The position numbers and the translations under genes are program-made. A stretch of DNA of 64,000 bases from Clostridia bacterium (GTDB lineage: Bacteria > Bacillota > Clostridia > Oscillospirales > CAG-272), in contig JAGATD010000047.1 of assembly GCA_017621415.1 (NCBI GenBank), positions 1 to 64,000 on the forward strand. Reading direction: 5' to 3'. The notes beneath the pieces are model-generated. The model saw only the letters and a list, made by a program, of their open reading frames with translations. It ran no database searches and was not told where the DNA came from. Shown here piece by piece: positions 36,487 to 58,814 of the stretch (position 1 is the stretch's first letter; every line of letters begins with the position of its first letter).

Positions 36487-38181
36487 TCATTGGTAAGATT
36501 TATATATTTCCTTAACCGCAAAGTAGGATGCCTTGGGGTTCCTGTACTCGTTTAATATACCCTTGTTGTTGTAGCCCCTGGCACGGGTAATTCCAGCCTC
36601 CTCGGAGGTGCGTGTGTCGCACATCTGCCAGATGTATGTACCTGCGATTTTTTCGTCGGAAAGGAAGAGCTTTAAGCAATGAGAGAGAAGTCTTGATTGG
36701 TATTCCTCACTCCACTTAAAGGTTTCAAAATTCCTGTGTCCGTATACCGCAGCTCCGCCAAACTCGCTCATAATTATAGGCTTGTTACTAAATCCGAGAG
36801 AATCAAGTCTTTTATGAACATCGTCTACAAATTTCGCCCAGGACTCAATGTCCTCACCGTACCAGCCGTTGTATTGATTTATCGAAACAACGTCGCAGAA
36901 TTCGTAAGAAATATCCTTTAGCGCCTTGTTTGTGGCATAGGTAACAATACGGTTGCCGCCAATTTCTTTAAGCAAGCTATAATACTCACGTGACATATTG
37001 TATCCTGCCTCGGTCTCGGTGAGAATTTCGTTATGCATACCCCAAATAATTATAGATGGGTGGTTGTAGTAGTGCTTAACCATCTCTCGGTGCATATCCC
37101 CGCCTCGCTTAATTACAACAGGGTCAGAAAGCGCCGATTCGGAAAATCCACCGCCCCAGATAGGAATTTCACTCCAGAAGAGCATACCGCACTCGTCAAG
37201 TATATCAACAAAATACGGGTCGTTGGGGTAGTGTGAGCCTCTAAGCGTATTGCAGCCAAGGTCGAAGGCAATATCAACGTCTCTCAGCATCAGGCTGTGA
37301 GGAAAGGCAAAGCCAAAGTCGGGGTGGTCCTCGTGACGGTTCACACCAATCAGACGTATATCCTTGCCGTTCAATCTGATTTTACAGTCCTCTACCGAGA
37401 TTTTTCTGAATCCGCACCTGTCCTTCAGGTCATCGGTGGAGGTTGAAATTTCGATATCATAGAGGGCGGGGGACTCGGGCGACCAAAGCTCAAAATTCGA
37501 AATAACAAAGGATTTTGTAAAGAACTCTTTGCATTCCCCCTGACTTAATGTAACTTTTGTCTCTGTTTCAACATCGCATACAGTTGTCTTTACAATGTCT
37601 GTAATCTCGGTCTCGTCTGCGTTATACAGTTCGATAGCAAATCTTGCCTCAGCCTTAGTCATATCCTCATTCAGGGTGTATTCAAGCCTGTTTGAAAGGA
37701 CAGAAATGCCACATAGGGTTTCAACACTCACCGAGCGAGTGATTCCGCCGCAGTGGTACCAGTCAACAACCCTCTGAGGAATAGATTTTTCGTCAAATGA
37801 GTTAGAAACCTTAACAGTCAGCCTGTGTGTGCCCTCGGTGACACCGCGCTTTATAAGCTCAAATTGGCAAAAACCGCCGTAGTGACTGCCAAGCAGCTCT
37901 CCGTCAAGCCAGACGGTTGCCTCGGTCATAACCGCGCCAAAAACGAACCTTAAGGTACCGCCCTTGGTATAAAATTCCCTTTCGTAAAAGGCGGCTCCCT
38001 CGTATTCAAGAAGCCCCCACATAGTGTTCCATACAGAGGGTACGGTAACAGTCTCGCCTGACGGAATACCGTTTTGCCAGCCATCGCTTTCTCCTATGCC
38101 CTCGGGGTCGACAGCGAATTTCCAAGCGCCGTCAAGGAGCTGAATATGTCTTATCTTATGTTCGTCAAAAAGCCGTATCAT
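36487..38181 (-). CDS. uidA: Beta-glucuronidase (GH2)
   Basis: A 564-aa intracellular glycosidase removing beta-linked glucuronic acid. Sugar-binding domain (1-180), immunoglobulin-like domain, then TIM barrel with 'GVNRHEDHPDFG' near 276, acid/base Glu385 in 'GMHNEI' and nucleophile Glu473 in 'IIMSEFGG'. 'NQYNGWYGED' and the C-terminal Asn-x-Lys motif ('YNNKGIL'), which contacts the uronate carboxylate, separate glucuronidases from galactosidases. Its ATG overlaps the stop of the upstream AraC gene (ATGA), so regulator and enzyme are translationally coupled. Confidence 0.9.
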   Translation of the reverse strand: MIRLFDEHKIRHIQLLDGAWKFAVDPEGIGESDGWQNGIPSGETVTVPSVWNTMWGLLEYEGAAFYEREFYTKGGTLRFVFGAVMTEATVWLDGELLGSHYGGFCQFELIKRGVTEGTHRLTVKVSNSFDEKSIPQRVVDWYHCGGITRSVSVETLCGISVLSNRLEYTLNEDMTKAEARFAIELYNADETEITDIVKTTVCDVETETKVTLSQGECKEFFTKSFVISNFELWSPESPALYDIEISTSTDDLKDRCGFRKISVEDCKIRLNGKDIRLIGVNRHEDHPDFGFAFPHSLMLRDVDIAFDLGCNTLRGSHYPNDPYFVDILDECGMLFWSEIPIWGGGFSESALSDPVVIKRGGDMHREMVKHYYNHPSIIIWGMHNEILTETEAGYNMSREYYSLLKEIGGNRIVTYATNKALKDISYEFCDVVSINQYNGWYGEDIESWAKFVDDVHKRLDSLGFSNKPIIMSEFGGAAVYGHRNFETFKWSEEYQSRLLSHCLKLFLSDEKIAGTYIWQMCDTRTSEEAGITRARGYNNKGILNEYRNPKASYFAVKEIYKSYQ

Positions 38182-39677
38182 TCAGAGCCTCTTTTCTTAA
38201 TATATTGCTTTGGTGAAATTCCGTAATATTGCTTGAAATTCTTAGAAAAAACAGCAGGGTCAACAATTCCGCACTGCTCGGCAATCTTAGAGATGCTTAC
38301 ATCATCGCCGTAAAGACTGAGCAGCTCCTTCGCTTTTTTCATCCTTATTGTAGTAAGGTATTTTTTAGGAGTCATTTTAGCAATTTCAAAGAATTTTGTT
38401 CTCACATAGTCTTTAGCATATCCGCTTTCCTTAAGGAGCTTTACAACACTTAATTCGCTGTTGTCAAAGTTCTTTTTTATATTATCCATCATAGCGTAAA
38501 CAATAGCCGCCATGTCGCTCTTCGGATAATCGAGATTAAGGAGAATAAAGTTTATATAGCTGTCGCACAGAGATGTAAAATATTCCTCTTTGCCAAAGCG
38601 GTTATATAGAGCAAGCTCGGCGAGCTTTTTGCCCTCGCCGTAAATATTGTCGTAAAGTACGGTTGCATCATCAAAGCGAGAAAGCTTTTCAAAATTACCG
38701 GTAATAGAGATGATGTTATATTTGTGCTCTGAGATAATTCCGTGCTTTACCCCCGGGGGAACAATTACAATAGAGCCCTCGTATATCGGATACTCGCTTT
38801 TTTCGGTAAGAAATACTGCCTCGCCGGTTTGCACCAGCATAACCTCGTAAAAGTCGTGTGTATGCTTAATGCCTGAGGTTCCCTGAGCCGTATTCCAAGC
38901 AGCAGGATCCATGGTTAAGAAGTCGTCAATCTTCTTAAGGCGCATATCTACATAAAAATCTCGGTCAGAGGGAATTCCGTCATTAAATGTATAAAGGTCT
39001 ATCAGCTCCTCCGAAATTTTACAGGGCTCATCCCCGGAGGAATAGCTGCGGTCCGTAAGGGTAAATGAAATGTCATCAAGATATTGAACACCCTTGATAT
39101 TCGTTGCCGAGTGAATAAGCAGCGCCCTTGTGGGGAGCTCTCCGCCCGCGTTTATCTGAATATCACGTGTTACGGTTTTTTCTTGATTAGAATATATGAA
39201 TAACTTCAGTTTTGATTCTTTAAGCTGATCAATATTATGATAATATTCAAATTTCAGCTTGTACCACCTGTTTGCGCATAAGGTAATTTCATCAGCCTCA
39301 AGCCCGTCGGCTTTTATAGATAGCTTTTTTGCGTCGGTATTCGGCTGGTCGGAGGAAACAAAAAAACCAAGAGAAAACATACGCGCGTTTGCCTTGTTGC
39401 AAAACTCTATAGCCCAATATTTGGGGCGGTAGTACCATATCGGTTCAAAGTAATACCTCATCTCAAAAACAAATGATGAGGGCGAGGAAACGATGGCATT
39501 GCCGCCAATATTTGTTGTGCTGTTAACATTGTGGGTGGTGTTTGAGGTTAGAATTTTAATTACACGGTTGTTCGGATTTTCAGGATCGTAATCTGTATAA
39601 AAACGCGCTCCGTAAAGCCCGCGAAACTCGGGCGTAAGCTCGTTATCATTGGAGATTATTCTTGCGTGAATATCCAT
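38178..39677 (-). CDS. AraC-family regulator with a jelly-roll (LamG-like) N-terminal domain
   Basis: A 499-aa regulator of unusual build. Residues about 15-215 form a beta-sandwich domain that aligns by eye with the second jelly-roll of the lipoprotein at 43.5-49.2 kb: 'DPENPNNRVIK' against 'DPKNAANKVIK', 'RWYKLKFEYYH' against 'TWYKFKLVYHF', 'ESKLKLFIYSN' against 'ESKLLIYVYNN', and 'GVQYLDDISFT' against 'GSQYIDNVSVS'. Residues about 250-345 hold the cupin ('KHTHDFYEVML', 'IVPPGVKHGI') and 395-497 the two helix-turn-helix motifs. No signal peptide. It overlaps the glucuronidase start by four bases. Likely regulator of the glycan locus. Confidence 0.85.
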   Translation of the reverse strand: MDIHARIISNDNELTPEFRGLYGARFYTDYDPENPNNRVIKILTSNTTHNVNSTTNIGGNAIVSSPSSFVFEMRYYFEPIWYYRPKYWAIEFCNKANARMFSLGFFVSSDQPNTDAKKLSIKADGLEADEITLCANRWYKLKFEYYHNIDQLKESKLKLFIYSNQEKTVTRDIQINAGGELPTRALLIHSATNIKGVQYLDDISFTLTDRSYSSGDEPCKISEELIDLYTFNDGIPSDRDFYVDMRLKKIDDFLTMDPAAWNTAQGTSGIKHTHDFYEVMLVQTGEAVFLTEKSEYPIYEGSIVIVPPGVKHGIISEHKYNIISITGNFEKLSRFDDATVLYDNIYGEGKKLAELALYNRFGKEEYFTSLCDSYINFILLNLDYPKSDMAAIVYAMMDNIKKNFDNSELSVVKLLKESGYAKDYVRTKFFEIAKMTPKKYLTTIRMKKAKELLSLYGDDVSISKIAEQCGIVDPAVFSKNFKQYYGISPKQYIKKRGSE

Positions 39678-39903: not shown

Positions 39904-40032
39904 ATGAAAGAAAAAAGCAAGTATTTAAATGCCGAATGTGAAATTCTCCTTTTGTCCGAGACCGATGTTATTGCTACCTCGGCAGCCACAGACAAGTGGA
40001 GCGGAGACGTTGACAGCGGCGGTTGGACCTAA
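39904..40032 (+). CDS. 42-residue peptide, module 1
   Basis: A short ORF (ATG after GGAAAGGAG) translating to 42 aa: a charged start, 'CEILLLSETDVIATSA' in the middle, and the tail 'KWSGDVDSGGWT'. It is a paralogue of the peptide at 51570, sharing AE-E--LL--D-I-TSA and the W-SG---D-D-GW tail. No signal sequence. Short Clostridial peptides with a DVI-TS core are often seen but have no assigned function. It is followed at once by its own terminator, then a REP element, then a secreted-protein gene. Precursor, regulator and structural roles are all open. Confidence 0.7.
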   Translation: MKEKSKYLNAECEILLLSETDVIATSAATDKWSGDVDSGGWT

Positions 40033-40064
40033 GCGGTAATTTTTGATGACGTTTGCCGCTTTTT
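40031..40064 (+). terminator. Terminator or attenuator after the module 1 peptide
   Basis: AAGCGG (40031-40036) pairs with CCGCTT (40056-40061), with extra pairing inside and a T run after. It overlaps the peptide stop codon. Confidence 0.6.
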
Positions 40065-40076
40065 CCCGATCGGAGT

Positions 40077-40232
40077 AACAGCCTTCCCTGTTGGGGAAGG
40101 GGGACCACAACGGGGTTCCCCGAAGCGAGCGTAGCCGAGCTTTGGGGGTTCGCGATGGTGGTGGATGAGGTTTACACCTTCGGGTCGCAAAGCAACAAAT
40201 CTCCCTCAAAATTTCCTCGCTTGCTCGTAAAA
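40077..40232. repeat. REP-like element, variant 2
   Basis: CCTTCCCTGTTGGGGAAGG hairpin start, then GGGGTTCCCC, AGCGAGCGTAGCC and GGTGGATGAGGT segments typical of MITE-like repeats in gut Clostridia. It lies between the module 1 peptide and its secreted partner; module 2 has no such element. Confidence 0.65.
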
Positions 40233-40275
40233 CCAAATTAAAAACAAAAAACAAAAATTCTGAAAGGAAAGAAAA

Positions 40276-41922
40276 ATGAAAAACACAAAACTCTCTAGAA
40301 TCATTCTCCTTGCGCTTTCTGTCGCTGTCCTTGTAGGATGCGCACTCGCCTTTAGCGTAAGCGCGGCTGAGGAGAAAACAACCAATGACATGATTTACGC
40401 TCAGAACGTAGTTTACGGCGATAAGGTTGCGATAGCTTATGCTGTTAACGTACCGGTTGCTGATGCCGCAAACACTACGGTTAATTACTATTGGGAGGAT
40501 GCGCCTGACGTTATTAAAAAGGCTACATATTTTCGCAACGACACAATAGATGGTGTAGAATATCCCGTATTCATCACCGAGGGCGTAGCTGCAAAAGAGC
40601 TTGCTAAGGTAGCATATGTTACTACCGACGGCGGCAAAACACATAAGAGCTACTCCGCAGCAGAGTACCTTTATGTAAGACTCTATGAAGACGGCTTTGC
40701 GGCTAAGACCGAGGCTGACGGCAAGGACTATAACAGAAAGCTCCTTTATCAGAACCTCCTTAACTACGGTGAGCAGGCGCAGATTGTCTTTGATCATAAT
40801 GGTACGCGCCTTACCGAGTACAGCTTCGCTTATACAACAAATAAAGACGTTAAGCTTAACGGCGCATCTTATGTATTTGGTGCGGAAACCGTAACCGCTA
40901 CATATAGCGGTGCAGGTCCTCTTGAAAGTTGGATTTCTATTGACACAGAGGGTGTCGAGACCGTGCTTGCAAGTGCTGACATTACCGTTGACGGTGTAAT
41001 TAAGGTTGATGTAAATCTTGGTGCTCATAATTGTGCTGACGTAGATCCCAAGGACCACAAGTGCGATACCTGTGGCGAAGTTCTTTCCGAGTGTAAGAAC
41101 GAAAATGCAGACCACCTCTGCGACATCTGCGGTGTGGTAGTAAGCACTTGCGCTGACGCAAACTCTGACGGTAAGTGCGATGTTTGTGGTATTTATACTT
41201 TTGCAAGCGACGTTATAAATTCAGGCAGTGCTATCACGATCCGTAATATTACTTCGTCGGCAAAAGCAATGACAAGCGATACTATAACTAATTCCTCTAG
41301 CATCTCTTCTGGTGCACCTGATACAATGCCTTATGGTGCGCATTTGTATCTTGATACTCCTGCTTCGGCGGCAAACAAGGTTCTTGTTATTAATACAAAC
41401 GCAGCAACTGGTCCAGCTCCTTCCGGAAGCACGAAAGTAACAGACTATTTATCTGACATTGTTTTTACACCCGATGTAGCGGTAGAAAATGGGGATCTCA
41501 TAGTTCTCGAATTTGATTATTGTCTTCAGTCTCTTACTAGTGCACCCCAAAACGGTTATCCTCTTTACTGGTATTTGGATTATAGTGGTGAAACGGCTGA
41601 TGCTACTATGAATGCAATTTATAGCTACAATAAGGGCAACCCAAGACTGCAAGCGGATAGCGACAAAGCTTATTCATTTACAAAGGGAACTTGGGTAAGA
41701 ATTAGACTGGTATGCGACAATACAAACAAAAAATTATACACCTACATTTCCAACAATGGTGGTGAGAGCTATAATACTTGTGCTACTGTTAGCTCTCTTG
41801 CATCAACACTTGAAAACATTGGATTTAGTACTAACGTGAGTAGCATTGTTGCTGTTCAATACGTAGATAATATAAAATGCGTAAAGACCACCGCTGAGGC
41901 TTACGGAATCACTCTCAACTAA
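40276..41922 (+). CDS. Secreted protein with Cys-rich linker and jelly-roll domain, module 1
   Basis: A 548-aa exported protein: signal peptide at 1-33 ending 'SVSAAEE' (a lipobox-like 'LVGC' lies inside, so lipidation is possible). Residues 35-170 align with the N-terminal domain of the module 2 protein ('EYPVFITEGVAAKELAKV' against 'TYPVFYAAGIAPKDINKV'; 'EYLYVRLYE' against 'DYLYARLYK'). Residues about 255-310 carry three spaced repeats of the pattern KCDxCG, like zinc-binding knuckles. Residues 320-548 form a LamG-like jelly-roll ('GTWVRIRLVC', 'VQYVDNIK'). Probably surface glycan binding. AAGGAAAG precedes the ATG. Confidence 0.75.
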   Translation: MKNTKLSRIILLALSVAVLVGCALAFSVSAAEEKTTNDMIYAQNVVYGDKVAIAYAVNVPVADAANTTVNYYWEDAPDVIKKATYFRNDTIDGVEYPVFITEGVAAKELAKVAYVTTDGGKTHKSYSAAEYLYVRLYEDGFAAKTEADGKDYNRKLLYQNLLNYGEQAQIVFDHNGTRLTEYSFAYTTNKDVKLNGASYVFGAETVTATYSGAGPLESWISIDTEGVETVLASADITVDGVIKVDVNLGAHNCADVDPKDHKCDTCGEVLSECKNENADHLCDICGVVVSTCADANSDGKCDVCGIYTFASDVINSGSAITIRNITSSAKAMTSDTITNSSSISSGAPDTMPYGAHLYLDTPASAANKVLVINTNAATGPAPSGSTKVTDYLSDIVFTPDVAVENGDLIVLEFDYCLQSLTSAPQNGYPLYWYLDYSGETADATMNAIYSYNKGNPRLQADSDKAYSFTKGTWVRIRLVCDNTNKKLYTYISNNGGESYNTCATVSSLASTLENIGFSTNVSSIVAVQYVDNIKCVKTTAEAYGITLN

Positions 41923-42180: not shown

Positions 42181-43500
42181 ATGTATACTAAAAATGACAT
42201 TATAACCGAGGAGAGGATAAATTCTCTTCGTGAAATAAGAAACAAAAAAAGAGAAAAGGACTTTGAGGCTCTTATCCCTGCTATGGGAAAGGCGGCGGTA
42301 GACGAGATAAGTAAAATTTACGAGATGTTCGACCACCGAATGCTCATTTGGCTTGCGGGGCTTTGGGAGCCGGAGATTGGCGGATTTTATTACTCAAATT
42401 CCGCGAGAGACCACGAGGGCTTTCTCCCCGATCTTGAGTCCACAAACCAGGCGATAGGCTTTATTACCAGGCAGTGCAGACTCTGCCTGGGCGAAGAAAA
42501 CGGAGAAATGCCTATAACCAAGCTACCCGAGAGATTTGCGAGCAAGATTTGCTCCTTTGCATACGGGCTGCAGGATGAAGACGGATACTTCTATCACCCC
42601 CAGTGGGGAAAGGACGTTCCCGAGACCAGAAAGGGCAGGGACCATATGGCTGCCTGGCGGCTTATTGAGCCGCTTGGCGTTGAGTGCAAGTACCTGAGAC
42701 CGACACAAAGACCTAAAACAGGCGAGAAAAAGGTGACTTTACCCGAGCATTTTTCTTCTCCTGAAGCATTTGCCGCCTGGCTTGACACAAAGGAGCTTGA
42801 GGGCGGTAGGTCCTATTCTTTCGGTCATTATATAAATTCAACAACAGGCTATCTTTTCTCAGCGGGAAAAGAGTATATAGACATACTGGTAAACTGGCTC
42901 AACGAGCATCAAAATCCCGAAAACGGACTATGGGAAAGCAAGGTGACCTATGACGCGGTTTCCGGCCTTATGAAGCTGGGACTTTGCTATCCCGACTTTG
43001 GCGCAGCGCTCCCCTATCCCGAAAAATCCTTTGAGAGCGCTATGGCTGCCGTGCTTTCCGACCAGCCTGTAACCTTTGGCTGCGAGTTCTATAACGCATG
43101 GGCGGCTATGAACGCATCAATTAAGTCTATGGAATTTGCGGAAGATTTTGTTCTTGCCGACAAATGCAGAAAAAGACTTTTTGAAATGGCGCCCGAGCTG
43201 ATAAGGGTTACGGGTGAAAAAATGGCAAAATGCAGAGTCTCTGACGGCAGCTTTGCCTACTTTACCGAGGAGTCGGGAAAAACCTGCCCCAGGTCTCAGG
43301 GTGTTCCTGTGGGGCTTGCCGATGTGCGTGAGGGAGATATTAACGGCAACGGATGCTCAACCCAAGCCCCCCTTAAGCATATGTTCTCTGCCTTTGGGGT
43401 GAGCAATCCTCCTTTCTTCTGTGAGGAGGATGCCGAATTTCTCTTCGAGCTTATGGATGCGAGAGTAACCGCCCCAAAAAAAGCGGTTGCGGAGCGCTGA
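42181..43500 (+). CDS. Toroid-domain protein without signal peptide, module 1
   Basis: A 439-aa protein, mostly alpha-helical by composition, not recognised as a named family. Motifs shared with three other proteins here: 'IWLAGLW', 'GGFYYSNSARD', 'GFLPDLEST', 'GYFYHPQWGK', 'RKGRD', 'NGLWE', 'SGLMK' and 'EGDINGNG' (D-V-N-A-T in the others). The pattern of repeated helices with Trp, Tyr and acidic residues suggests an (alpha/alpha) barrel such as glycan lyases and glucuronyl hydrolases have (inference). The ATG at 42181 aligns with the paralogue's start; the longer reading runs into the REP element. Twenty-three bases before the giant lipoprotein gene. Confidence 0.75.
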   Translation: MYTKNDIITEERINSLREIRNKKREKDFEALIPAMGKAAVDEISKIYEMFDHRMLIWLAGLWEPEIGGFYYSNSARDHEGFLPDLESTNQAIGFITRQCRLCLGEENGEMPITKLPERFASKICSFAYGLQDEDGYFYHPQWGKDVPETRKGRDHMAAWRLIEPLGVECKYLRPTQRPKTGEKKVTLPEHFSSPEAFAAWLDTKELEGGRSYSFGHYINSTTGYLFSAGKEYIDILVNWLNEHQNPENGLWESKVTYDAVSGLMKLGLCYPDFGAALPYPEKSFESAMAAVLSDQPVTFGCEFYNAWAAMNASIKSMEFAEDFVLADKCRKRLFEMAPELIRVTGEKMAKCRVSDGSFAYFTEESGKTCPRSQGVPVGLADVREGDINGNGCSTQAPLKHMFSAFGVSNPPFFCEEDAEFLFELMDARVTAPKKAVAER

Positions 43501-43523: not shown

Positions 43524-46500
43524 ATGAAAAAGATTTTATTGTTTATATTAACAGTTTGTCTGGCTCTCGGGCTTTTGGCATCCTGCGCTGATGACTCCGA
43601 CAAGGATGACGCAGGCACCCAAACCCCCGGCGGACCTACAGGCGAAGAGGTAACAGGCGGTTCTGATGTCTGGTCGAACAGCATTGTTCCAACTATTGTT
43701 GATGCGAAAGATGACGTTTTTGACCTTTCTGACAACATTTATTTGCATATTAAGAACGCTACGGGCAAATCTCCCGAGATTGCCGACAGCATAAGCGCGG
43801 ATAAAAGCAATTATATTGTTCTCGGCAAGGTTAACTGCGATCTTGTAACAGAGGCATATAAGAAATTTGAATCCTATGTTAATGTTGACGAGCTGTTTGA
43901 CAAAAAACAGTCCGCTTGGCTCATATATGTAAAGAACGGCTCTGTCGCTATAGCTTACAGCGATATCCTTGCTAAAAAGGATGCGGTTGACTATCTTGTC
44001 TCTCAGGCAAAGGGCGCAAGCTTCGCTCCCGCAAACGGTGTTTTCGCAAAGGAGACCCTTGAGATTGAGGAGTACATAAAGGAGCTGAGAGCAGCAGAGC
44101 AGATGACGGATATGGAGGTAATAGGCTCGGTTCTCGGCGCTGACGCTCTTGCCAGCTTTAAGGACCTTTATGCTATGTTCGATTCTGACCTTTACATCTG
44201 GCTCGCGAACCTCTGGTGTCCTGATAACGGCGGATTTTATTATTCCGCATCCGCGAGAAACAACGAGGGCTTCTTGCCCGACCTTGAGTCTACCGCTCAG
44301 GCGCTGCAGCTCCTTGACAGAACAGGTCTTTCCGCAGCCTACAGCGGCAAATGGTCAAATATGCTCCCTGATGATATAAAGGCTAAGCTTTTGAGCTTTG
44401 CTAAGGATATGCAGGCGGAGGACCATTATTTCTACCACCCCCAGTGGGGCACAAGCATAAACTCAAGCCGCAGGGGACGTGACGCAGGCTGGGCAAGAAC
44501 AATTATTACCGGTCTTGGCGGAACTCCTAACTATTCCTTTGTTGGCGATACAAATGTTGAGGATTTGTCAAGCCTTACTCAGAGCTTTAAGAACAGCTCA
44601 AAGGTGTCTGCTGTATCAAGGGTTGTGTCGGTTGCAGCCTCAAGTGCGGTATATGCTACTACCGAGAGCTTTATAGCTTATCTTGACTCGCTTAACTTCA
44701 GCAAGAACTCTTACTCGGCAGGAAATACAATTAACTCTACCGTGTCTGAGATAAAAAAGCACGGTCATTGGGATACTCTCAGAAAATATCTTACCGAGCA
44801 TCAGAACAAGGAGAACGGACTTTGGGAGGATGAGGTAAGTTACCAGTCTGTAAACGGACTTATGAAGCTTTGTACCTGCTTTGGCTCAAGCTTCCCGAAT
44901 GCGGACAAGGCGCTGGACTCGGCTATAGAAATTCTCTTGTTGCCTATTGATGACGAGCTTACCGGTATAACCTTTGTTTATAACCCCTGGGTAGCTATTG
45001 CGAACCTGCTTAACGCGGTAGACACTGCCACAAAGACCGATCTTCGAAATATGCTTCACGAAAATGCGGCGAATATCTTTAAAATGACAAGAGAAAAGCT
45101 TTCCGCATTTGCTAAGGATGACGGCGGCTTCTCTTATCTCAGAGATTATTCCTCGCCATTCTCCCAGGAGGCGCTTGTAGCTGTCAGCGGAAGCGCTGAG
45201 AGTGATGTTAACGCAACAGCTATCGCTATCTCAACGGTAGTCTGGTATATGGAAGAGGTATTTGCCATTAACTTCCCAACAGTTTATTCAAAGTATGAGT
45301 CGGTATACTTCCTTGATACACTTACAGGCCTTGGTTCTATTATAAAGGATGCTCAGCTTTCTGAGCCTCCCGCGGTAATAACCTTTGACGATTATATTGA
45401 AGAAGAAGCGCAGATAGAGGGTAATGTTGTTATAAGACCTGTAAACGGTGTTTTAAATACTATCGGAAATACCGAGTCTGACGGTAACGGATATAAGTGG
45501 TTTGAGTCAGCCGTTGTACCTAATCCCGCAGAGGGGGCTGACCCTAAGGACCTTGTGCTTTATGTTGCCGATAAGGTTTATACAAATGATGACGGCAAAA
45601 CCGAGGTAGCCGATACTCAGAGTAATACAACCTTTGAGATACTTAATATGGGCGCTCCCGGAAACTGCTATATCTTCGAGGCTGATATTCTCTTTGACGG
45701 TACCAGCGACGCGTCGAGTCCTATAATGCAGATTATGTATTTCAGAAACGGCTCGGCTCTCAACTCCGCTTGGGTCAACCTGTATCAGTATGAGAGATTT
45801 GGTGAAAAATATCTTCGTATTGAAGAAAATTGGGCGGGCGCTGACGGTTTTAAGGACAAAGAGGTTGTAAGCGGTATTCCCTGCGACGAGTGGTTCAAGC
45901 TCAGAATTGAGATGTATAAGGATTACTCGGGCGAGGGCGGTCAGCTTAAAACTATGATGAAGTTCTATGTCAACGGCAAGTATGCCGGCACCAGCGACTC
46001 GGGTCATTATGCAGACGGAGCCTATAAGGACTTCCTTGTAAATGCGGTAAAGCTGGCTTATTACAGACATGCGGCATCCGCATTCTATCTTGACAATATT
46101 TATGTTGCTAAGAGCTCAAAGAACTATGAGGGTGAAAAGATTAGTGTTTCTGACTCCTCTGATGAGGTTAAGGATAAATATGTCTGGGACTTCGAGAGCG
46201 GAATTCCATCCTTTGATACCAACTTCACCGAGGTGTTCTACCAGGATAGCGACAAGAATACCATAGCTATTGACGCTAAGGATTGGACAAGTGAGCTGGA
46301 TGCAATTTACGGCGGCTCAAACTCTCCCGGAGCTAAGATATACTCTGTTCAGGACCCGAAGAACGCGGCAAACAAGGTTATAAAGGCATATTCATTCAAT
46401 ACAAAATCTCGCTCTTATACCGCTACAATGTATGTTGATGATGTTTTGACAGCGGAGGGCGGCAAGACCTGGGAGGTTGAGTTTGACTACTACTTCGAAA

Positions 46501-49166
46501 AGCTCGAGTGGCTTTACGCGGCTGACTTCTTCTCAGTAAACTTCCAGAATATTAACGGCGCGCCTATCGCGGGCATTACCTTTGAGGCGCTGGGCTGGGA
46601 GGAGACCCATAAGTCAGAGCTTCTCGGAATAAGACTCAGCGACGGCACAAAGCTTACTAACTTTGGTATTAACGATGATACCTGGTATAAGTTCAAGCTG
46701 GTTTATCATTTCAATGAAGAAAAGCCCGAGGAGTCAAAGCTTCTTATTTATGTTTATAACAATGAAACAAACGGATATGACTGCCTCGCTAACACAACTC
46801 TTTCGGCTAAGATTGACAAAATTGAGCGCGTAGGCTTCAGCTTCTTAAGCTATGACATAAGAGGAAGCCAGTATATAGATAATGTTTCTGTTTCAAGAAC
46901 CGCGCTTGAGTATGATATCACGGCTAAGCCTATCGAGGGTGAGATAACCATTCCCGAGGAAGAGGATACAAGTATACATATCGACACAACCTCAAGAGGC
47001 GAGGGCGCAAACTACAATAACGCTTTGAGCTTTGAGAATGTGACATTTGATTCTCTTGTGAAAGACGGTAAAATGGCAAACAACACCGCGAGAGGCGACG
47101 GTATAGCCGACGGCAACAGAACGCTGTCCTTTGTAACACTGGGTGACAACAAGGCGCTTGTTTACGAGTCGCTCGGCAGCGGAAACCACGCGCTGAACTT
47201 CGTAGCCCAGAAGCCTGCTTACGATGGCTTCATCTTCGAGGCAGATATCAAGCTTAATGATGTTGATACCACCTCGGGCAGAGATATTCGCTTTACCGGT
47301 ACAAAGACTAATGGCACAGCAGACTCTTCGCTTTACGGCTTCAATATTAAAATCCATAAGAATCCTAAGGAAAGCGTCGGCGGTTATATTATAACAGTCT
47401 CGGGCAGCGAGCAGAAGATAACTGTTAAGGACAACAGCTGGTTCAACATCCGCCTTGAGACCGACGGACTTAACACAGGCTCTCTGTTTATCCTTTGCAT
47501 AAACGGTGTAACTGTAACTAGCGGAAAGCTTAGCGAAAGCATTTCCGGAATAAAGGGAGTTGAGCTGTTCACTCCGTCTACATATAACGGTCACGGATGG
47601 GAAAAGGGCTCTATCAGCCTTGATAATGTTTATGTCAGCGGTAAGGGAACACCTCCTCCTTACGACATCATTACAGATGACGGAAGAGGCGACGGATATT
47701 ACAAGACCGACGCGATAAACTATACCGGCAAGACCTATGAGTCTCTTGTTTCAGGTGGTTATATGAATGTTAATACCTACCGTAAAGACGGTATAAACGA
47801 GGGTCTGCGCTCGCTTGCGGTAAGAGACATTGACAGCGACGCTGTACTTTCTTACTCAGCCTTGGGCAGCGGAAATCACGCGCTGAACTTTGTTGCTGTA
47901 TCTCCCGCGGTAGATGGCTTTGTTTTCGAAACCGACCTTATGGTTGAGGGAGCTACCATCGACGAAACCAGAGATATTAGCTTTATCGGAACCGCGACAA
48001 ACGGTACAGCGGCTGCAAATCTGTGGGGATTCAATATAAAGATTCGCTCCAATCCCGATAATACGGTTGGCGGCTACATTATAAGCGTTAGCGGTCTTGA
48101 CCACGAGTTCTATATTGCTGCGGGCGCGTGGGTTAACATTCAGTTCGTAGCTTACGGTCTTGATAAGGACGATGAGGTAACATTTGCGGTAAACTCGGTA
48201 CAGAAGAGCTTTAAGCTCACATCGTCAATATCGGCTATTAAGGGTGTTGAGCTTTATACCGCATCTGATAACAGCGGACTTAAGGGCTTTACCTCCGGTA
48301 CAATTAACCTTGATAACACATATGTTTCGGGTACTGGTGTTTACAATGCTCCCGAACAGATAACCACCTCCTCAAGAGGCGAGGGCCATTACATAAGCTC
48401 CTCGATTAAGTATTACAGCTATCTTCAGTATTCGGATATTGTTGATGCCGGCTTGATGGCTGAAAATACCGCTAACGACCGCGGCGACGGTATTTCCAAG
48501 GGACACAGAACCGTATCTCTCAAGGATTCAAATGATGTTACCGCTTTGGTTTACACCGCCACAGGTAGCGGAAATCACTCGCTTAATTTCGTGGCTCAGC
48601 CTAACAATAAAGATGGATTTGTCTTTGAGACAGATATAATGCTTGATAAAGTTCTTGCTTCCGAAACGAGAGCAATAGCATTTATCGGTTCAAGCACAAA
48701 CGGAAGCAAAACCGCAGACGTTTGGGGTGTGAATATAAAGCTTTATCCTAATCCCGACAGTGTTGTAGGCGGATATATTCTCACTGCTTCAGGCACTGAC
48801 TGGAAGGGTGTTATTCCCGGAAATACATGGGTTAATATTCGCTTTGAGGCAAATTCGCTTGAAAAGGGCGGAGCATTCTACCTGCATGTAAACGGTGAAA
48901 TGGTTGCCATAGGCGAGCTTGGAAGCGATATATCAAATATCAAGGGTGTTGAGCTCTACACACCGTCAACCAATGGCGGAGTAGATGGCTTCACCGAGGG
49001 TAGCATTTACCTTGATAACACGGCAGTGCTTGTCAGCGGTATTGAGACAAACCCTGATGAGGGTGGCTCAGGTTCCGGCTCCGGCTCAGACTCAGGCAGT
49101 ACAGATACCGGTAGCGGAAACATGACCGGCGGTGACGTAGACGGTTCCGCATGGGACAAAAACTAA
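43524..49166 (+). CDS. Giant lipoprotein: toroid domain plus five jelly-roll domains, module 1
   Basis: An 1880-aa surface lipoprotein. Lipobox 'GLLASC' near residue 21; a small alpha/beta domain at about 50-160 resembling the N-terminal domains of GH20/GH84 enzymes; toroid domain at about 190-600 with the same motifs as the signal-less neighbours ('GGFYYSASARN', 'YFYHPQWGT', 'NGLWED', 'SDVNATA'). Then two LamG-like domains (about 619-865 and 886-1128), three tandem ~229-residue repeats (from about 1156, 1385 and 1614), and a Gly/Ser-rich tail ending 'GGDVDGSAWDKN'. Probably anchored to the membrane and reaching outward to bind or process a polysaccharide. AGAGGAAAT precedes the ATG. Confidence 0.78.
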   Translation: MKKILLFILTVCLALGLLASCADDSDKDDAGTQTPGGPTGEEVTGGSDVWSNSIVPTIVDAKDDVFDLSDNIYLHIKNATGKSPEIADSISADKSNYIVLGKVNCDLVTEAYKKFESYVNVDELFDKKQSAWLIYVKNGSVAIAYSDILAKKDAVDYLVSQAKGASFAPANGVFAKETLEIEEYIKELRAAEQMTDMEVIGSVLGADALASFKDLYAMFDSDLYIWLANLWCPDNGGFYYSASARNNEGFLPDLESTAQALQLLDRTGLSAAYSGKWSNMLPDDIKAKLLSFAKDMQAEDHYFYHPQWGTSINSSRRGRDAGWARTIITGLGGTPNYSFVGDTNVEDLSSLTQSFKNSSKVSAVSRVVSVAASSAVYATTESFIAYLDSLNFSKNSYSAGNTINSTVSEIKKHGHWDTLRKYLTEHQNKENGLWEDEVSYQSVNGLMKLCTCFGSSFPNADKALDSAIEILLLPIDDELTGITFVYNPWVAIANLLNAVDTATKTDLRNMLHENAANIFKMTREKLSAFAKDDGGFSYLRDYSSPFSQEALVAVSGSAESDVNATAIAISTVVWYMEEVFAINFPTVYSKYESVYFLDTLTGLGSIIKDAQLSEPPAVITFDDYIEEEAQIEGNVVIRPVNGVLNTIGNTESDGNGYKWFESAVVPNPAEGADPKDLVLYVADKVYTNDDGKTEVADTQSNTTFEILNMGAPGNCYIFEADILFDGTSDASSPIMQIMYFRNGSALNSAWVNLYQYERFGEKYLRIEENWAGADGFKDKEVVSGIPCDEWFKLRIEMYKDYSGEGGQLKTMMKFYVNGKYAGTSDSGHYADGAYKDFLVNAVKLAYYRHAASAFYLDNIYVAKSSKNYEGEKISVSDSSDEVKDKYVWDFESGIPSFDTNFTEVFYQDSDKNTIAIDAKDWTSELDAIYGGSNSPGAKIYSVQDPKNAANKVIKAYSFNTKSRSYTATMYVDDVLTAEGGKTWEVEFDYYFEKLEWLYAADFFSVNFQNINGAPIAGITFEALGWEETHKSELLGIRLSDGTKLTNFGINDDTWYKFKLVYHFNEEKPEESKLLIYVYNNETNGYDCLANTTLSAKIDKIERVGFSFLSYDIRGSQYIDNVSVSRTALEYDITAKPIEGEITIPEEEDTSIHIDTTSRGEGANYNNALSFENVTFDSLVKDGKMANNTARGDGIADGNRTLSFVTLGDNKALVYESLGSGNHALNFVAQKPAYDGFIFEADIKLNDVDTTSGRDIRFTGTKTNGTADSSLYGFNIKIHKNPKESVGGYIITVSGSEQKITVKDNSWFNIRLETDGLNTGSLFILCINGVTVTSGKLSESISGIKGVELFTPSTYNGHGWEKGSISLDNVYVSGKGTPPPYDIITDDGRGDGYYKTDAINYTGKTYESLVSGGYMNVNTYRKDGINEGLRSLAVRDIDSDAVLSYSALGSGNHALNFVAVSPAVDGFVFETDLMVEGATIDETRDISFIGTATNGTAAANLWGFNIKIRSNPDNTVGGYIISVSGLDHEFYIAAGAWVNIQFVAYGLDKDDEVTFAVNSVQKSFKLTSSISAIKGVELYTASDNSGLKGFTSGTINLDNTYVSGTGVYNAPEQITTSSRGEGHYISSSIKYYSYLQYSDIVDAGLMAENTANDRGDGISKGHRTVSLKDSNDVTALVYTATGSGNHSLNFVAQPNNKDGFVFETDIMLDKVLASETRAIAFIGSSTNGSKTADVWGVNIKLYPNPDSVVGGYILTASGTDWKGVIPGNTWVNIRFEANSLEKGGAFYLHVNGEMVAIGELGSDISNIKGVELYTPSTNGGVDGFTEGSIYLDNTAVLVSGIETNPDEGGSGSGSGSDSGSTDTGSGNMTGGDVDGSAWDKN
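46989..49035 (+). repeat. Three protein-level tandem repeats in the giant lipoprotein
   Basis: Units start near 46989, 47677 and 48365 (period about 688 bases). Each has RGEG or RGDG, 'GSGNHALNFVA' (or HSLNFVA), 'VGGYI' and 'IKGVEL(F/Y)T'. Clear tandem duplication, moderately diverged. Confidence 0.88.
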
Positions 49167-51569: not shown

Positions 51570-51698
51570 ATGAAAAAAACGACTTATACCCAGGCTGAGG
51601 TAGAGGTGATCTCCTTGTTATCAACGGATATCATCACATCGTCGGCAGGTTCGTGGAGCGGCTCCGGTGGCGATATTGACCCCGATGGTTGGATTTAA
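51570..51698 (+). CDS. 42-residue peptide, module 2
   Basis: Paralogue of the peptide at 39904, identical in length. It has 'AEVEVISLLSTDIITSSAG' then 'SWSGSGGDIDPDGWI'. AAGGAG lies about 13 bases before the ATG. No signal peptide. It is only 49 bases upstream of the secreted-protein gene. Keeping size, order and tail motif in both modules argues that it is a real, selected gene. Confidence 0.72.
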   Translation: MKKTTYTQAEVEVISLLSTDIITSSAGSWSGSGGDIDPDGWI

Positions 51699-53342: not shown

Positions 53343-54680
53343 ATGAAAACTAGAGAAGAAATCTTAACAAAAGAAAGACTTGAGTATGTCAGAGCTTGCA
53401 GAAATGCTTCAAGAGAGTCTGCATTTGCTGAGGTTAAAGACAAAATCGGCGAAGCCGCCTCTGCCGAGCTTAAGAAGCTATACGACATATTTGACGAAAA
53501 AATTTATATTTGGCTTTCAGGACTTTGGGACAGGGACTGCGGAGCATTTTATTATTCCGAATCAGCAAGAGACACATCCCCCTATCTTCCGGATATCGAG
53601 AGTACGGTTCAGGCGCTTCGCTTTCTTAACAATTCCGGTATGATACGAGCGGGCGAGGGCAATTACATTAACAGAATCCCCGTCGAGGTGCGCGAGGGAA
53701 TAGTTAATTTTGCGCTTTCGCTTCAGGATGATGACGGATATTTTTATCACCCTCAATGGGGAAAGAATATTTCGGCTTCAAGACGCGGCAGGGACCTTTC
53801 ATGGGGCAAAAATACATTAAAGGAAGCCGGCGTTACACCGAGATATATGCTTCCCACAGCCAAAACGTCTGACGGCAAGCGCTCGGAGCATCTTCCCGAT
53901 TATCTAAAAAGTATAGATGCATTCAAAAAGTATCTTGACGGAATGGATATCACAAACAATTCTTACTACGTCGGAAATGTTATTGAGTCCACAATGTCTT
54001 TAATATCTGCCGCAGGAGAAGAATACACAAATTATCTTGCAGAGTGGCTTAATTCAAAAAACAGGTCAGACAACGGTCTTTGGGAGGAGGAAATCAAATA
54101 CTCCTCCGTTAACGGACTGATGAAAATGTCGGGCAATTATCCTGCTATGAGGGTTGGATTGCCTCATGCCGCAGCATCCTTAAAAAGCGCAATTTTTGCG
54201 GTGATGAGTGATGAGCGAATGAAGTTTGTTTGTGAGGTTTATAACCCCTGGGCAACGATTGTAAATGTTTTCAGAGCTAACGGTAATGCCCAGGAAAATG
54301 GAGAACTGGACATTCTTCGACGTCAGCTAATCGACAATGCTCCCGCACTTATTGCAAAAACCGCGGAAAAAATCGGAGTGTTCAGAAAGTCCGACGGCTC
54401 CTATTCTTACTTTAAGACTATGTCAAGCGCAATTTCTCAGGGTTCGCCCGTTGCCGTTCCCAGAACCAACGAGGGCGACGTTAACGCAACTACCATATGC
54501 GTTGGATCTACCACAAGATGTATGAGGTCGGCGCTGGGGCTGCCTGCAATTCCGATTTATGCTCCCGAGGACGGGGAATTGTTCTTTGAGCTTTTGATGT
54601 GCTCTTCGGTTGTAGAAAAAAAGTACAACTTAGATTATTTTCCCGAGAAGCCCTCTGACGAAGAGGAGCTGGGCGAGTAA
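53343..54680 (+). CDS. Toroid-domain protein without signal peptide, module 2
   Basis: A 445-aa paralogue of the protein at 42181 along the whole length ('IYIWLSGLWDRDCGAFYYSE', 'YLPDIEST', 'GYFYHPQWGK', 'ASRRGRD', 'NGLWEEE', 'VNGLMK', 'EGDVNATT'). No signal peptide, so probably cytoplasmic. No clear Shine-Dalgarno lies before the ATG (only an A-rich stretch), unlike its neighbours. Followed 21 bases later by the second large lipoprotein. Function not recognised; an (alpha/alpha) barrel glycan-active enzyme is the best guess. Confidence 0.75.
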   Translation: MKTREEILTKERLEYVRACRNASRESAFAEVKDKIGEAASAELKKLYDIFDEKIYIWLSGLWDRDCGAFYYSESARDTSPYLPDIESTVQALRFLNNSGMIRAGEGNYINRIPVEVREGIVNFALSLQDDDGYFYHPQWGKNISASRRGRDLSWGKNTLKEAGVTPRYMLPTAKTSDGKRSEHLPDYLKSIDAFKKYLDGMDITNNSYYVGNVIESTMSLISAAGEEYTNYLAEWLNSKNRSDNGLWEEEIKYSSVNGLMKMSGNYPAMRVGLPHAAASLKSAIFAVMSDERMKFVCEVYNPWATIVNVFRANGNAQENGELDILRRQLIDNAPALIAKTAEKIGVFRKSDGSYSYFKTMSSAISQGSPVAVPRTNEGDVNATTICVGSTTRCMRSALGLPAIPIYAPEDGELFFELLMCSSVVEKKYNLDYFPEKPSDEEELGE

Positions 54681-54701: not shown

Positions 54702-57700
54702 ATGAAAGGAATTTTTAAAATCTTAAGCTTTTTGATTATATCCTTTGCGCTTCTTGTGTCCTGCACCCCCGAGGAGCCGGATATTGGCGGCGAAGAAAAT
54801 GTGACCCAAACAAGCGGTTGGGTGGCAAATGATATAGTATATTACCGTGGAGATGCTGATTTGCCTCTTGACGGGATGACCGATGAGCTTTTATACAAAA
54901 CCGAGGTGAAGCTTCAACCTCGTGGAGGTGCCGAGAGCGACAAGCTGTTTATTGTCGGTAAATATGACAGTGAGCTGTCACGTCTTGCTTATTCGAAGCT
55001 CGAGAGAGTTTCGACAAACTCCGAGCTTGAGAGCTCGTATGTTATATGTACAGACGGTGTGTCGGTGGCAATAGCCTATGAAAATTATGTTACCCGATAT
55101 GCAGCCATAGATTATTTCTTAAGTAATTTTAGCTCCTTAGACCTGACAAAGCAGGGGACCCTGGTAAGCAAGACCATTGGCATCGAGGAGTATGTAAATG
55201 AGACGAGAAATGAGCTGAGGGAAAAAGATTTTTTGGGCTTATCGTCCCTTTCTGCAGGCGCTGTAAGGGTATTAAAGGAACTGTATTCACTTTACGACGA
55301 GGATGCCTACATCTGGCTTGCAAATCTTTATGATCCGGACATTGGAGGCTTTTATTATTCCAACTCGGGAAGAAATACGCAAGGCTTCTTACCCGACCTT
55401 GAGTCAACAGCCCAGGCGCTTATGTTTATGGCAGATAGCGGAATGTTAGATAATTACGGCGGAAAATACGGCGATGCCGTATCGCCTGAAATGAGAAAGG
55501 CGATTTTGGCATTTGCAAAAAACAGCCAGGACCCTGATGACGGATATTTTTATCATCCTCAGTGGGGTAAAAGCATTAGCTCAACAAGGCTTGGCAGAGA
55601 TCTCGGCTGGGCAACAAGAATTATAAGTGCCTTTGGTGAAAAGCCCATATGGGATACTCCCAACGGTGTTGGTGGTGAGCAGGGCAAACCGGGCAGCGAG
55701 GTTGCTATGACCTCTTCGCTCCGCGCAGGCTCGGCTTTACCTGTTTCTAGAATAGTGCTTACGGCAGCTCCCGCATATCTTAAGGATGTGGAACTGTTTA
55801 AAGAGCATCTTGAAAATGATTTTGATTGGGAAAATAATTCTTACAGAGCGGGTAATGCGATAGAGTCTGAGCTTGGACAGATACAGAACGCAGGCAAGGA
55901 GTATACAGAGGCGCTAATCGAATTTTTGAATTCAAAGCAGAAGTCAAACGGATTGTGGGAGGACAGTATAAACTACGATTCGGTTAACGGTTTGATGAAA
56001 ATTTCGGTAGCTTATACCGAACTGAAGGCGGAAATTCCCAAAGCCGATGTGGCTATGAACAGCGCTCTTACAATGCTGAAATCCGATGACAGCGCATCTC
56101 ATGTATGCTCTGTATATAACCCATGGAAGGCTGTTGCAAATATTTTAGAGAGTATTAAGAAAGTTTCGGGCGACTCGGAGGTTCAGAAGCTCAGAAAATC
56201 ATTTATAGATGAGGCCGAGGAGCTTATTAAAGTAACCCTTGATAAGCTTATGGTATTTAAAAAGAGTGATGGCGGTTTTTCATATTATGTCAAGTATTCG
56301 GCGGCAAATTCTCAAGGCTCGGCGGTAGCTCTTGAAAAAACCGAAGAGAGCGATGTTAATGCAACAATGATTTGCGTTAACAGCATTATAACGGCAATGT
56401 TTGACGTGTTCGGAATTGAGCCTGTAAATCGCTATTATCCGGTAGATTATGCTTTTCTTACCGATACCATTATGCACCTCGGAACAATTATCAAGGATGA
56501 GATTCCCGATGCCGAGGTAATAACCTTTGATGAATATGATCCCTATATGGGTAACAGTGAGGGCGGAGTTGAAAAGTCTCCCGATGATTATGTAGAAAAC
56601 ATTGTAGGAGACATAGAAATTGATAATAGCGGCTACAAGTGGTTTGAGAGCGCTGTTGTAAAAAATCCTGATCCCGATGCTAAAAAAGAAGATGACAAGG
56701 TTCTTTATGCAAAGTCAAATGTTTGCATCGGAGAAGAAAAGACCGTGGCAGAAAAGCCAAGCAGCACAAGATTTAAAATAGGCTATGCCGATCTTGCTGT
56801 TTTGGGCAACTGCTTTGTATACGACGCTGATATGTACTTTGTTCCAGGCTACGGAAAGGTAAGCAGTAGCGGAAAGCCTACATCAGACCCTATGCTTCAG
56901 ATATTCTTTATGACAGAGTCGCTACCTCAGGCGTCGCTTAATTTCTCGGTTTATACAGAAAATGGCACCGATTATGTCAAGATAGGTGAGAATTATGCAG
57001 GCCTTGACGGCAAGGAGAGCAATATTGCAGGCGGAATACCTATGGGAAAATGGGTAAATATCCGACTTGAGTATTACAAAGATTATGAAACCGTCGAAGA
57101 GAACGGCAAGGTAACAACCCTGTTTAAGCCGGCTCTTAAAATATTTGTTGACGGAAAGTTTATGGGAGATTGCGATGCTACCATAACAGGCAGCGATTCT
57201 TCCGGCAAGTTAAATTATTATGACAGAAAGGTAGACCAGGTTTCTGTTTCATACTACCGCTATCTTGCAAGCGAGGTATACTTTAACAACGTGCTTGTTG
57301 AGCGCACGAGAAAAGAGTATGTCAAGGGTGAAAATCCCGATGCGATGATAGATCCTTCGCTTCCTGACGAGGAGATGCGCGAGAGCTACGGCTTTGAGGA
57401 TGGACTCCTTAACACCTCAAATGTTGCAAACAAGGTAAGAGTGCTTGATTTCGGTGTTAAAAAGTACATAAATGCCAGCGAGGGACAGACCTACAATCCG
57501 TATATTTCATATAGCATTGTTCAAGACCCTAAAAACGCGGCAAATAAGGTACTTAAGGTGGAGGCTCTTAAGGATGAGACGTTTGACAAGCCATCGAGAA
57601 CAGAGGTAAATCTTTACAACTCTGCGGCAAACGGAACAGATTATATTTTCGAGAGCAAATTCTACTATGATTCGGATTCTATCGGAATAAACGGTGACCT

Positions 57701-58814
57701 TACTCAGCTGTTCTTTATGAACAGTCTTGAAGGACAGCTTTATTCTCTTCGCATTTCTGCGCAGGCAACAAAAGGAGTCTTTAAGCTTTCTCTTATTGAG
57801 AACAACATAGGTTCCGATAAAGATACCGGCACAGGAGAAACTATTTGTGATAATTTAGCCTGTGACGGGTGGTTTACTCTTAAAATAGTATTCCACAGAA
57901 CAGGCAATGCCGATACCACCGGCGCAGACATTTATCTCAACGGTGAGCTTGTAAAAGCCGATAGAACCTTCAAGGCTGCGGCTCTTGAGCAAAATCCGCT
58001 TGTTAAGGTTGTTTTATCGCATCAAAAGACTAATAGCTCTACAGTCTACCTTGATGACATTTCATTTAAGAAAAGCGGAGAGGTTGTCGAGGATGTGGAA
58101 TCCGACAAGCCTGTCGCAGATTTTACCGACGGATTTAACACAAAGTATCTCCACAGCTACAGCTACTCCGGAAATGATCTTTTAGAGGTAACCGATATAG
58201 ATCCTGTAAAAATGGAAACCCTTTGTACAAAGTTCTATCTTTATGTAGACCCTAAGAATGATGCAAACCAGGTTCTCAGAGCGGTAAATAAGAACGGTGG
58301 AACTACCCCCGGATATACAAGAGTTAATATTTCGGGAGACAATACCGCGGGGGATAAATACACCTTTGAAACAAAGATGTATATAGAGACATTCTCTGCA
58401 GGATACAATCTGACCCAGATAAAGTTTGTGGATAAAAACGGCGGAGCCGCATTTAACACTTATATATCAATAGATTCTTCTACCAAGAATCTAAAAATAG
58501 CAACCACCGGCAGCGGAATATCCCCTGCAGCGGGAACAAACCTGCTTTCAGGCTCGGAGATTAAGGAAACGAGTAAAGCATGGTTTACCCTTAAAATGGA
58601 ATTATACCATAAGGGTGTTGAGTCTTCCGCAACAAACACCTACCTTAAGCTTTATGTAAATGACATTCTTGCTTATGACGGTATTGCCTACGGCGCCCTT
58701 GGAGCAGAAATAGATTATGTGGATATTGTGCATTGCAAGACCACAAAATCCAGCGCTGTTCTGTTTGATGATATATCGCTCACAAGAAGCAATGTAGCCT
58801 ACGTTAAGGACTGA
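54702..58814 (+). CDS. Large lipoprotein: toroid domain plus three jelly-roll domains, module 2
   Basis: A 1370-aa paralogue of the 43.5 kb lipoprotein. Signal with lipobox 'LLVSC' near residue 22; alpha/beta domain at about 45-155; toroid domain at about 170-575 ('GGFYYSNSGRN', 'GYFYHPQWGK', 'NGLWED', 'VNGLMK', 'ESDVNATM'); LamG-like domains at about 605-873, 895-1128 and 1141-1370. It lacks the triple repeat and Gly/Ser tail. Its last domain is closest to that of the module 2 secreted protein, suggesting domain exchange within the cluster. GAAAGGAAA precedes the ATG. Confidence 0.78.
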   Translation: MKGIFKILSFLIISFALLVSCTPEEPDIGGEENVTQTSGWVANDIVYYRGDADLPLDGMTDELLYKTEVKLQPRGGAESDKLFIVGKYDSELSRLAYSKLERVSTNSELESSYVICTDGVSVAIAYENYVTRYAAIDYFLSNFSSLDLTKQGTLVSKTIGIEEYVNETRNELREKDFLGLSSLSAGAVRVLKELYSLYDEDAYIWLANLYDPDIGGFYYSNSGRNTQGFLPDLESTAQALMFMADSGMLDNYGGKYGDAVSPEMRKAILAFAKNSQDPDDGYFYHPQWGKSISSTRLGRDLGWATRIISAFGEKPIWDTPNGVGGEQGKPGSEVAMTSSLRAGSALPVSRIVLTAAPAYLKDVELFKEHLENDFDWENNSYRAGNAIESELGQIQNAGKEYTEALIEFLNSKQKSNGLWEDSINYDSVNGLMKISVAYTELKAEIPKADVAMNSALTMLKSDDSASHVCSVYNPWKAVANILESIKKVSGDSEVQKLRKSFIDEAEELIKVTLDKLMVFKKSDGGFSYYVKYSAANSQGSAVALEKTEESDVNATMICVNSIITAMFDVFGIEPVNRYYPVDYAFLTDTIMHLGTIIKDEIPDAEVITFDEYDPYMGNSEGGVEKSPDDYVENIVGDIEIDNSGYKWFESAVVKNPDPDAKKEDDKVLYAKSNVCIGEEKTVAEKPSSTRFKIGYADLAVLGNCFVYDADMYFVPGYGKVSSSGKPTSDPMLQIFFMTESLPQASLNFSVYTENGTDYVKIGENYAGLDGKESNIAGGIPMGKWVNIRLEYYKDYETVEENGKVTTLFKPALKIFVDGKFMGDCDATITGSDSSGKLNYYDRKVDQVSVSYYRYLASEVYFNNVLVERTRKEYVKGENPDAMIDPSLPDEEMRESYGFEDGLLNTSNVANKVRVLDFGVKKYINASEGQTYNPYISYSIVQDPKNAANKVLKVEALKDETFDKPSRTEVNLYNSAANGTDYIFESKFYYDSDSIGINGDLTQLFFMNSLEGQLYSLRISAQATKGVFKLSLIENNIGSDKDTGTGETICDNLACDGWFTLKIVFHRTGNADTTGADIYLNGELVKADRTFKAAALEQNPLVKVVLSHQKTNSSTVYLDDISFKKSGEVVEDVESDKPVADFTDGFNTKYLHSYSYSGNDLLEVTDIDPVKMETLCTKFYLYVDPKNDANQVLRAVNKNGGTTPGYTRVNISGDNTAGDKYTFETKMYIETFSAGYNLTQIKFVDKNGGAAFNTYISIDSSTKNLKIATTGSGISPAAGTNLLSGSEIKETSKAWFTLKMELYHKGVESSATNTYLKLYVNDILAYDGIAYGALGAEIDYVDIVHCKTTKSSAVLFDDISLTRSNVAYVKD

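Follow-up and report, generated by a model that had tools for sequence, protein, structure and literature searches.

A cytoplasmic AraC/XylS regulator with a jelly-roll domain homologous to that of a surface lipoprotein of its own locus

Why should a transcription factor that works inside the cell carry a domain of the kind that surface proteins display outside it? The question is raised by a 64,000-nucleotide stretch of DNA from a Clostridia bacterium (the window), in which a 499-residue AraC/XylS regulator with an N-terminal jelly-roll is encoded on the minus strand (38178..39677). Among the AraC-type regulators found in uncultured gut bacteria, a known inducer is the exception. When the extra domain of such a regulator has a homologue in a surface protein of the same locus, the inducer can be searched for with the ligand of that surface protein.

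The regulator is identified by its open reading frame, by Pfam matches to AraC_binding and HTH_18, both above the Pfam cut-offs, and by orthologues. AraC_binding is matched by residues 268-318 (PF02311, E=7e-9, 35.9 bits against a cut-off of 21.1; PF07883 is matched as well), within a cupin-type ligand-binding domain that extends over about residues 264-340 (38658..38888, minus strand, with an approximate end). Residues 417-494 (38196..38429, minus strand) match HTH_18 and form the double helix-turn-helix DNA-binding domain of the AraC/XylS family (PF12833, E=3e-14, 53.5 bits against 33.6; PF00165, 45.3 against 26.6). By these matches the regulator is, in its C-terminal half, a typical AraC/XylS protein, which has cupin and double helix-turn-helix in common with AraC, RhaS and MelR and, by fold, with Rns and ToxT, both of which are matched by Foldseek. 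The regulator differs from the members of the family that sense through a cupin by an extra jelly-roll of 210 residues in front of that cupin. The N-terminal half (residues 1-260) has no Pfam match, and therefore no membership in a curated ConA-like family. The regulator has neither a signal peptide nor a membrane segment, the highest 19-residue hydropathy being 0.9-1.3 across the five proteins with this fusion, and the intracellular location assumed in an earlier, sequence-only reading of the locus is in this way upheld.

The same reading had taken the N-terminal region of the regulator for a copy of the second jelly-roll of an 1880-residue lipoprotein (43524..49166, plus strand), which is recognised by a hydrophobic, lipobox-type N-terminus and by orthologues in the other fusion loci. 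Regulator residues 13-220 align with lipoprotein residues 920-1138 at 25% identity (BLASTP, E=4e-16), and when the five regulator domains (A5) are compared as a profile with four lipoprotein domain-2 sequences (A6), the match extends over 199 columns with 100% probability (hhalign, E=1e-38). The profile-profile comparison, proposed beforehand as a check on which the idea could fail, is thus clearly significant. Against repeats 3-5 of the 1880-residue lipoprotein the regulator-domain profile gives 0.5%, i.e., no match, from which follows that the relation is specific to domain 2. The jelly-roll body of the regulator (residues 13-215; 39033..39641, minus strand) accordingly has its counterpart in residues 885-1133 of the lipoprotein (46176..46922, plus strand), as found by BLASTP, profiles, tree and model. 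A second lipoprotein (54702-58814) contains, at 57513..58811 on the plus strand, a pair of jelly-rolls that belong to this family but are more distant; they match the regulator more weakly in BLASTP (E=1e-7 and 1e-5), are found also by profile matches, with E=1e-8 for the last domain, and are placed in the family by the tree.

The predicted structures agree with this. In the AlphaFold 2 (AF2) model of the regulator, pLDDT is mostly 80-95 in the jelly-roll body from residue 31 onward, and twelve predicted strands (24-30 through 194-208) pair in order, one to one, with twelve strands predicted for domain 2 in a second model that covers lipoprotein residues 46-1145. In Foldseek both models match ConA-like folds of the PDB (PL14, the PL36 enzyme Aly36B, an ulvan lyase, TtX122 and lectin-type sandwiches), and legume lectins are among the matches of the regulator jelly-roll. 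The prediction is therefore one of the two-sheet jelly-roll of the ConA-like lectin/glucanase superfamily, and the likeness of folds expected earlier is borne out in predicted strand order and in the PDB folds matched. The regulator domain has no sequence-family match to these lyases and lectins, the likeness being one of predicted beta-sandwich fold alone, and the related lipoprotein domains have only weak matches to curated ConA-like sequence families.

The jelly-roll of the regulator differs from that of the lipoprotein in the order of its parts. The linker that follows the body (residues 222-262; 38892..39014, minus strand) is, by homology, the counterpart of the first strand of lipoprotein domain 2: an HMM built from the linker only matches residues 887-926 of the L028 lipoprotein (E=3e-7) and residues 878-901 of the L026 lipoprotein (E=7e-5), while the best shuffled match has E=0.64. 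From this follows that the regulator has the body first and the first strand after it, which is the reverse of the lipoprotein order. The copy in the regulator would then be either a circular permutant or a piece excised from a tandem array in a shifted register, and the latter is suggested by matches extending across the boundary between domains 1 and 2. The AF2 model gives no clear evidence of circular permutation, since pLDDT in the linker is about 40-62. That the missing first strand might be encoded upstream in another frame was considered and rejected, as the intergenic region has no such frame.

How widespread is the fusion? Full-length relatives occur in four of the 69 genomes of the genus, that of the window included, and amount to five distinct proteins from four species of this one genus of ruminant-gut Clostridia. 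Their identities to the window regulator are 69% (genome G031), 43% (G014) and, for the two copies in G012, 39% and 36%. When 84,980 species genomes were scanned, the same set came back together with a near-identical copy from a different Oscillospiraceae assembly, and two of the fusion records give roe deer gut as source. Outside the genus, samples of the family, the order and the class (about 390 genomes each) contained no fusion at E<=1e-6 to 1e-8, thresholds at which divergent fusions could be missed. The search for further AraC proteins of this kind, which the earlier reading had called for, has thus been successful, with all of them confined to one genus. That two genes have been joined by a faulty gene model or assembly, as might be imagined for a draft genome in 60 contigs, is extremely improbable, since five distinct proteins, taken from independent assemblies, have the same junction; as an annotation error the fusion is ruled out by its orthologues. 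The fusion gives the AraC/XylS family a new sensor architecture; in the literature no paper was found on an AraC protein fused to a jelly-roll or to a carbohydrate-binding module, which is weak evidence as coverage was incomplete. As a separate observation, a premature stop codon interrupts the helix-turn-helix region of the G014 regulator (L010/L030), by either inactivation or assembly error.

When the AraC halves are placed in a tree, the fusions and one unfused regulator, L013, form one clade (support 99/97) adjoining L002 and L003, two unfused regulators of the window genome. That unfused relatives surround the fusion clade, and that the linker retains a remnant of the next repeat, argue together that the domain was borrowed by the regulator from the lipoprotein side, as had been supposed from the start. 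L013 groups with the fused L029 (92/87) and shares its genomic place, with pyruvate kinase as the next gene in both, which suggests that L013 has lost the domain. Between species, a regulator without jelly-roll (L043, 11446-12234) and one with it (L029, 10001-11485) stand in the same place before pyruvate kinase. Loci with and without the jelly-roll, this same-place pair among them, are natural comparisons.

Homology and conservation of the fused domain are near certain. Among the five fusion proteins the jelly-rolls are 27-59% identical, and when the window is compared with L026, the regulator domain has a pN of 0.25 and domain 2 one of 0.23, with pS at 0.79, near saturation; as judged from these values the jelly-roll is under purifying selection. 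The linker, with 11 of 41 residues invariant, is among the most conserved stretches of the N-terminal half. In the cupin, all ten unfused relatives (L002, L003, L012 and L014-L020) retain an intact His-x-His and second His motif, while it is wholly or partly lost in three of the five fusions, and also in the unfused L013. Loss of the cupin histidines in fusions, when they are intact in unfused relatives, fits a shift of sensing from the cupin to the new domain. It is conceivable that the fusion arose by accident and is nearly neutral, with the jelly-roll as a passenger and all the work done by the cupin or the DNA-binding half, and both the distribution over a single genus and the secondary loss in L013 could be read in this way. 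We consider this very unlikely, because the domain has been kept in five proteins with low pN/pS and invariant linker residues, and it is the cupin motif that has degraded instead.

If the jelly-roll has a function, the next question is whether it binds what the lipoprotein binds. Regulator domains and domain 2 are 20-31% identical and group together in the jelly-roll tree (89/94); domain 2 is monophyletic within this group (99/97), and the regulator domains alone are supported at 69/70, at which level their monophyly is not established. Fourteen aligned positions, W138/Y139 included, are identical in all nine sequences, and only one is fixed differently, His189 being invariant in the regulators and Phe1107 in domain 2. 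Further residues that are invariant in domain 2 are not retained in the regulator domains. The low identity, the exchange of His for Phe and the separate grouping of domain 2 would be expected if the fold had been kept and the ligand changed, so that the two domains bind different molecules; with fourteen shared positions against a single fixed difference, we hold this to be clearly unlikely. It is plausible that the two domains would have one glycan as their common ligand.

We therefore come to the proposed function, to which we give an even chance in its complete form, with ligand and wiring included: the jelly-roll is a second sensor copied from the surface lipoprotein family. A cytoplasmic AraC/XylS regulator would have gained a ConA-like jelly-roll before its cupin, as an out-of-register copy from the lipoprotein family encoded beside it. 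The most likely ligand of the jelly-roll would be a soluble piece of the polymer with which the lipoprotein deals at the surface. After import, this piece would be processed to completion by cytosolic enzymes, and it may be a uronic-acid-containing oligosaccharide. Binding would alter the activity of the regulator at the divergent promoter of a cassette of peptide, secreted protein, enzyme and lipoprotein and, in the window, also at the regulator's own operon with a GH2 enzyme. A transporter was not recognised in the cassette.

Jelly-rolls often mediate protein contacts. The domain could thus be a module for oligomerisation or for binding a protein, e.g., an unexported cassette protein or the conserved small peptide encoded between regulator and cassette, rather than a sugar sensor. 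For TtX122, a jelly-roll of similar fold, assays revealed neither clear binding of carbohydrates nor clear activity (PMC10916295), from which follows that the fold alone proves nothing about the ligand. Since the closest homologues of the regulator domain are surface-protein domains in a carbohydrate-type locus, and the cupin is the usual dimerisation domain of AraC proteins, we regard the protein-binding alternative as unlikely, though worth keeping in view.

The sensor reading draws on the gene order. All five fusion genes are divergent to a cassette for a secreted protein, a soluble, enzyme-like protein of about 430 residues, and a lipoprotein. In the window, the secreted protein has 548 residues (40276..41922, plus strand) and homologues in the same place in L026-L030; some of these homologues have a C-terminal domain that is also found by the jelly-roll profile (E=6e-10 to 4e-7). 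The lipoproteins that match domain 2 strongly all sit in fusion loci; in the L029 locus the fusion is present and the lipoprotein is without a strong domain 2. L013, which has lost both jelly-roll and cupin histidines, retains the cassette, and since the unfused L002 and L003 also adjoin such cassettes, the clade looks like the cassettes' dedicated regulator.

The soluble protein of the cassette (42181..43500, plus strand), 45-70% identical to its orthologues, is a stand-alone, cytosolic version of the N-terminal alpha-helical domain of the lipoprotein, with homology over about 400 residues and without signal peptide. This helical domain is probably catalytic; it has no Pfam or PDB sequence match, and the Foldseek matches of the lipoprotein model are dominated by the jelly-rolls. 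Such signal-less copies occur in each cassette that was seen, and the window has a second one at 53343-54680 (plus strand). With the jelly-roll in the regulator and the helical domain in the soluble protein, both parts of the lipoprotein have cytosolic twins in the locus. It is possible, though we put it at somewhat less than an even chance, that the transcription factor senses with a permuted copy of the binding module of the surface protein under its control, one kind of module thereby testing the substrate outside and the imported product inside, with the enzyme domain mirrored inside too.

The window regulator had further been described as translationally coupled to a beta-glucuronidase. 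The stop codon of the regulator does overlap the start of a GH2 gene by 4 bp (ATGA; 36487..38181, minus strand), but the enzyme, recognised by its GH2 domains, has the beta-galacturonidase 6ncw/6ncx as closest solved relative and best full-length PDB match (E=5.7e-98), a likeness by which the enzyme is described as uronidase-like. The GH2 gene is absent beside the other fusion genes, which have different neighbours, and the overlap is peculiar to the window genome; translational coupling was therefore rejected as a conserved feature, and the GH2 gene does not belong to the conserved unit. A carbohydrate context of the fusion loci is likely from their gene content, with this uronidase-like GH2 and a GH20 in the window, genes of uxaB-uxaA-uxaC type beside the L028 fusion and GH43 near L029.

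The closest precedent in principle is given by the RsgI anti-sigma factors of Clostridium thermocellum, regulators with a carbohydrate-binding module or glycosidase domain that resembles the surface enzymes they control (PMC4711584). RsgI is a membrane protein with its sensor outside the cell, whereas the borrowed domain here belongs to a cytosolic DNA-binding protein, and none of the five fusions has the membrane segment and external sensor of the RsgI type. If the sensor reading is true, RsgI-type sensing has a cytosolic counterpart in this regulator, which then exemplifies how a sensor can arise from a surface domain copied in permuted order, and the cell may sense inside what the adjoining surface protein handles outside.

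In the intergenic region, a stretch of TTGTCAAAT type, about 20-35 bp long and 50-90 bp from the start of the window regulator, is common to the upstream regions of three fusion genes and overlaps a likely -35 box. The search for an operator common to regulator and cassette gave only short shared words. A dispersed repeat with 18 genome matches at 78-100% identity occupies 40030-40235, and similar-looking sequence precedes 42181.

First on the divergent side is an open reading frame for a small peptide of 42 residues (39904..40032, plus strand); orthologous frames that share its motif are present at each of the five distinct fusion loci. It belongs to a family of 42-50 residues with the motif E-x-E-I...D-I-I-T-T-S-G...D-G-x-W, located between regulator and cassette and without Pfam or NCBIfam match, of which the window has another member at 51573-51692 (plus strand) and further members are found in L026, L028, L029, L030 and L041. 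The genome has about 15 copies, and several of them immediately precede a gene that encodes a secreted protein of the 40276 type. The C-termini of the lipoproteins (49060-49166 in the window; L026 and L030) resemble the tails of the small peptides, with GGDVDGSAWDKN, GGNMDGSSWDEN and GGIVDGYYDEK in the former and GGDMDGTSWDEN and GGKVDGYWD in the latter, so that lipoproteins and small peptides possibly share a C-terminal tag.
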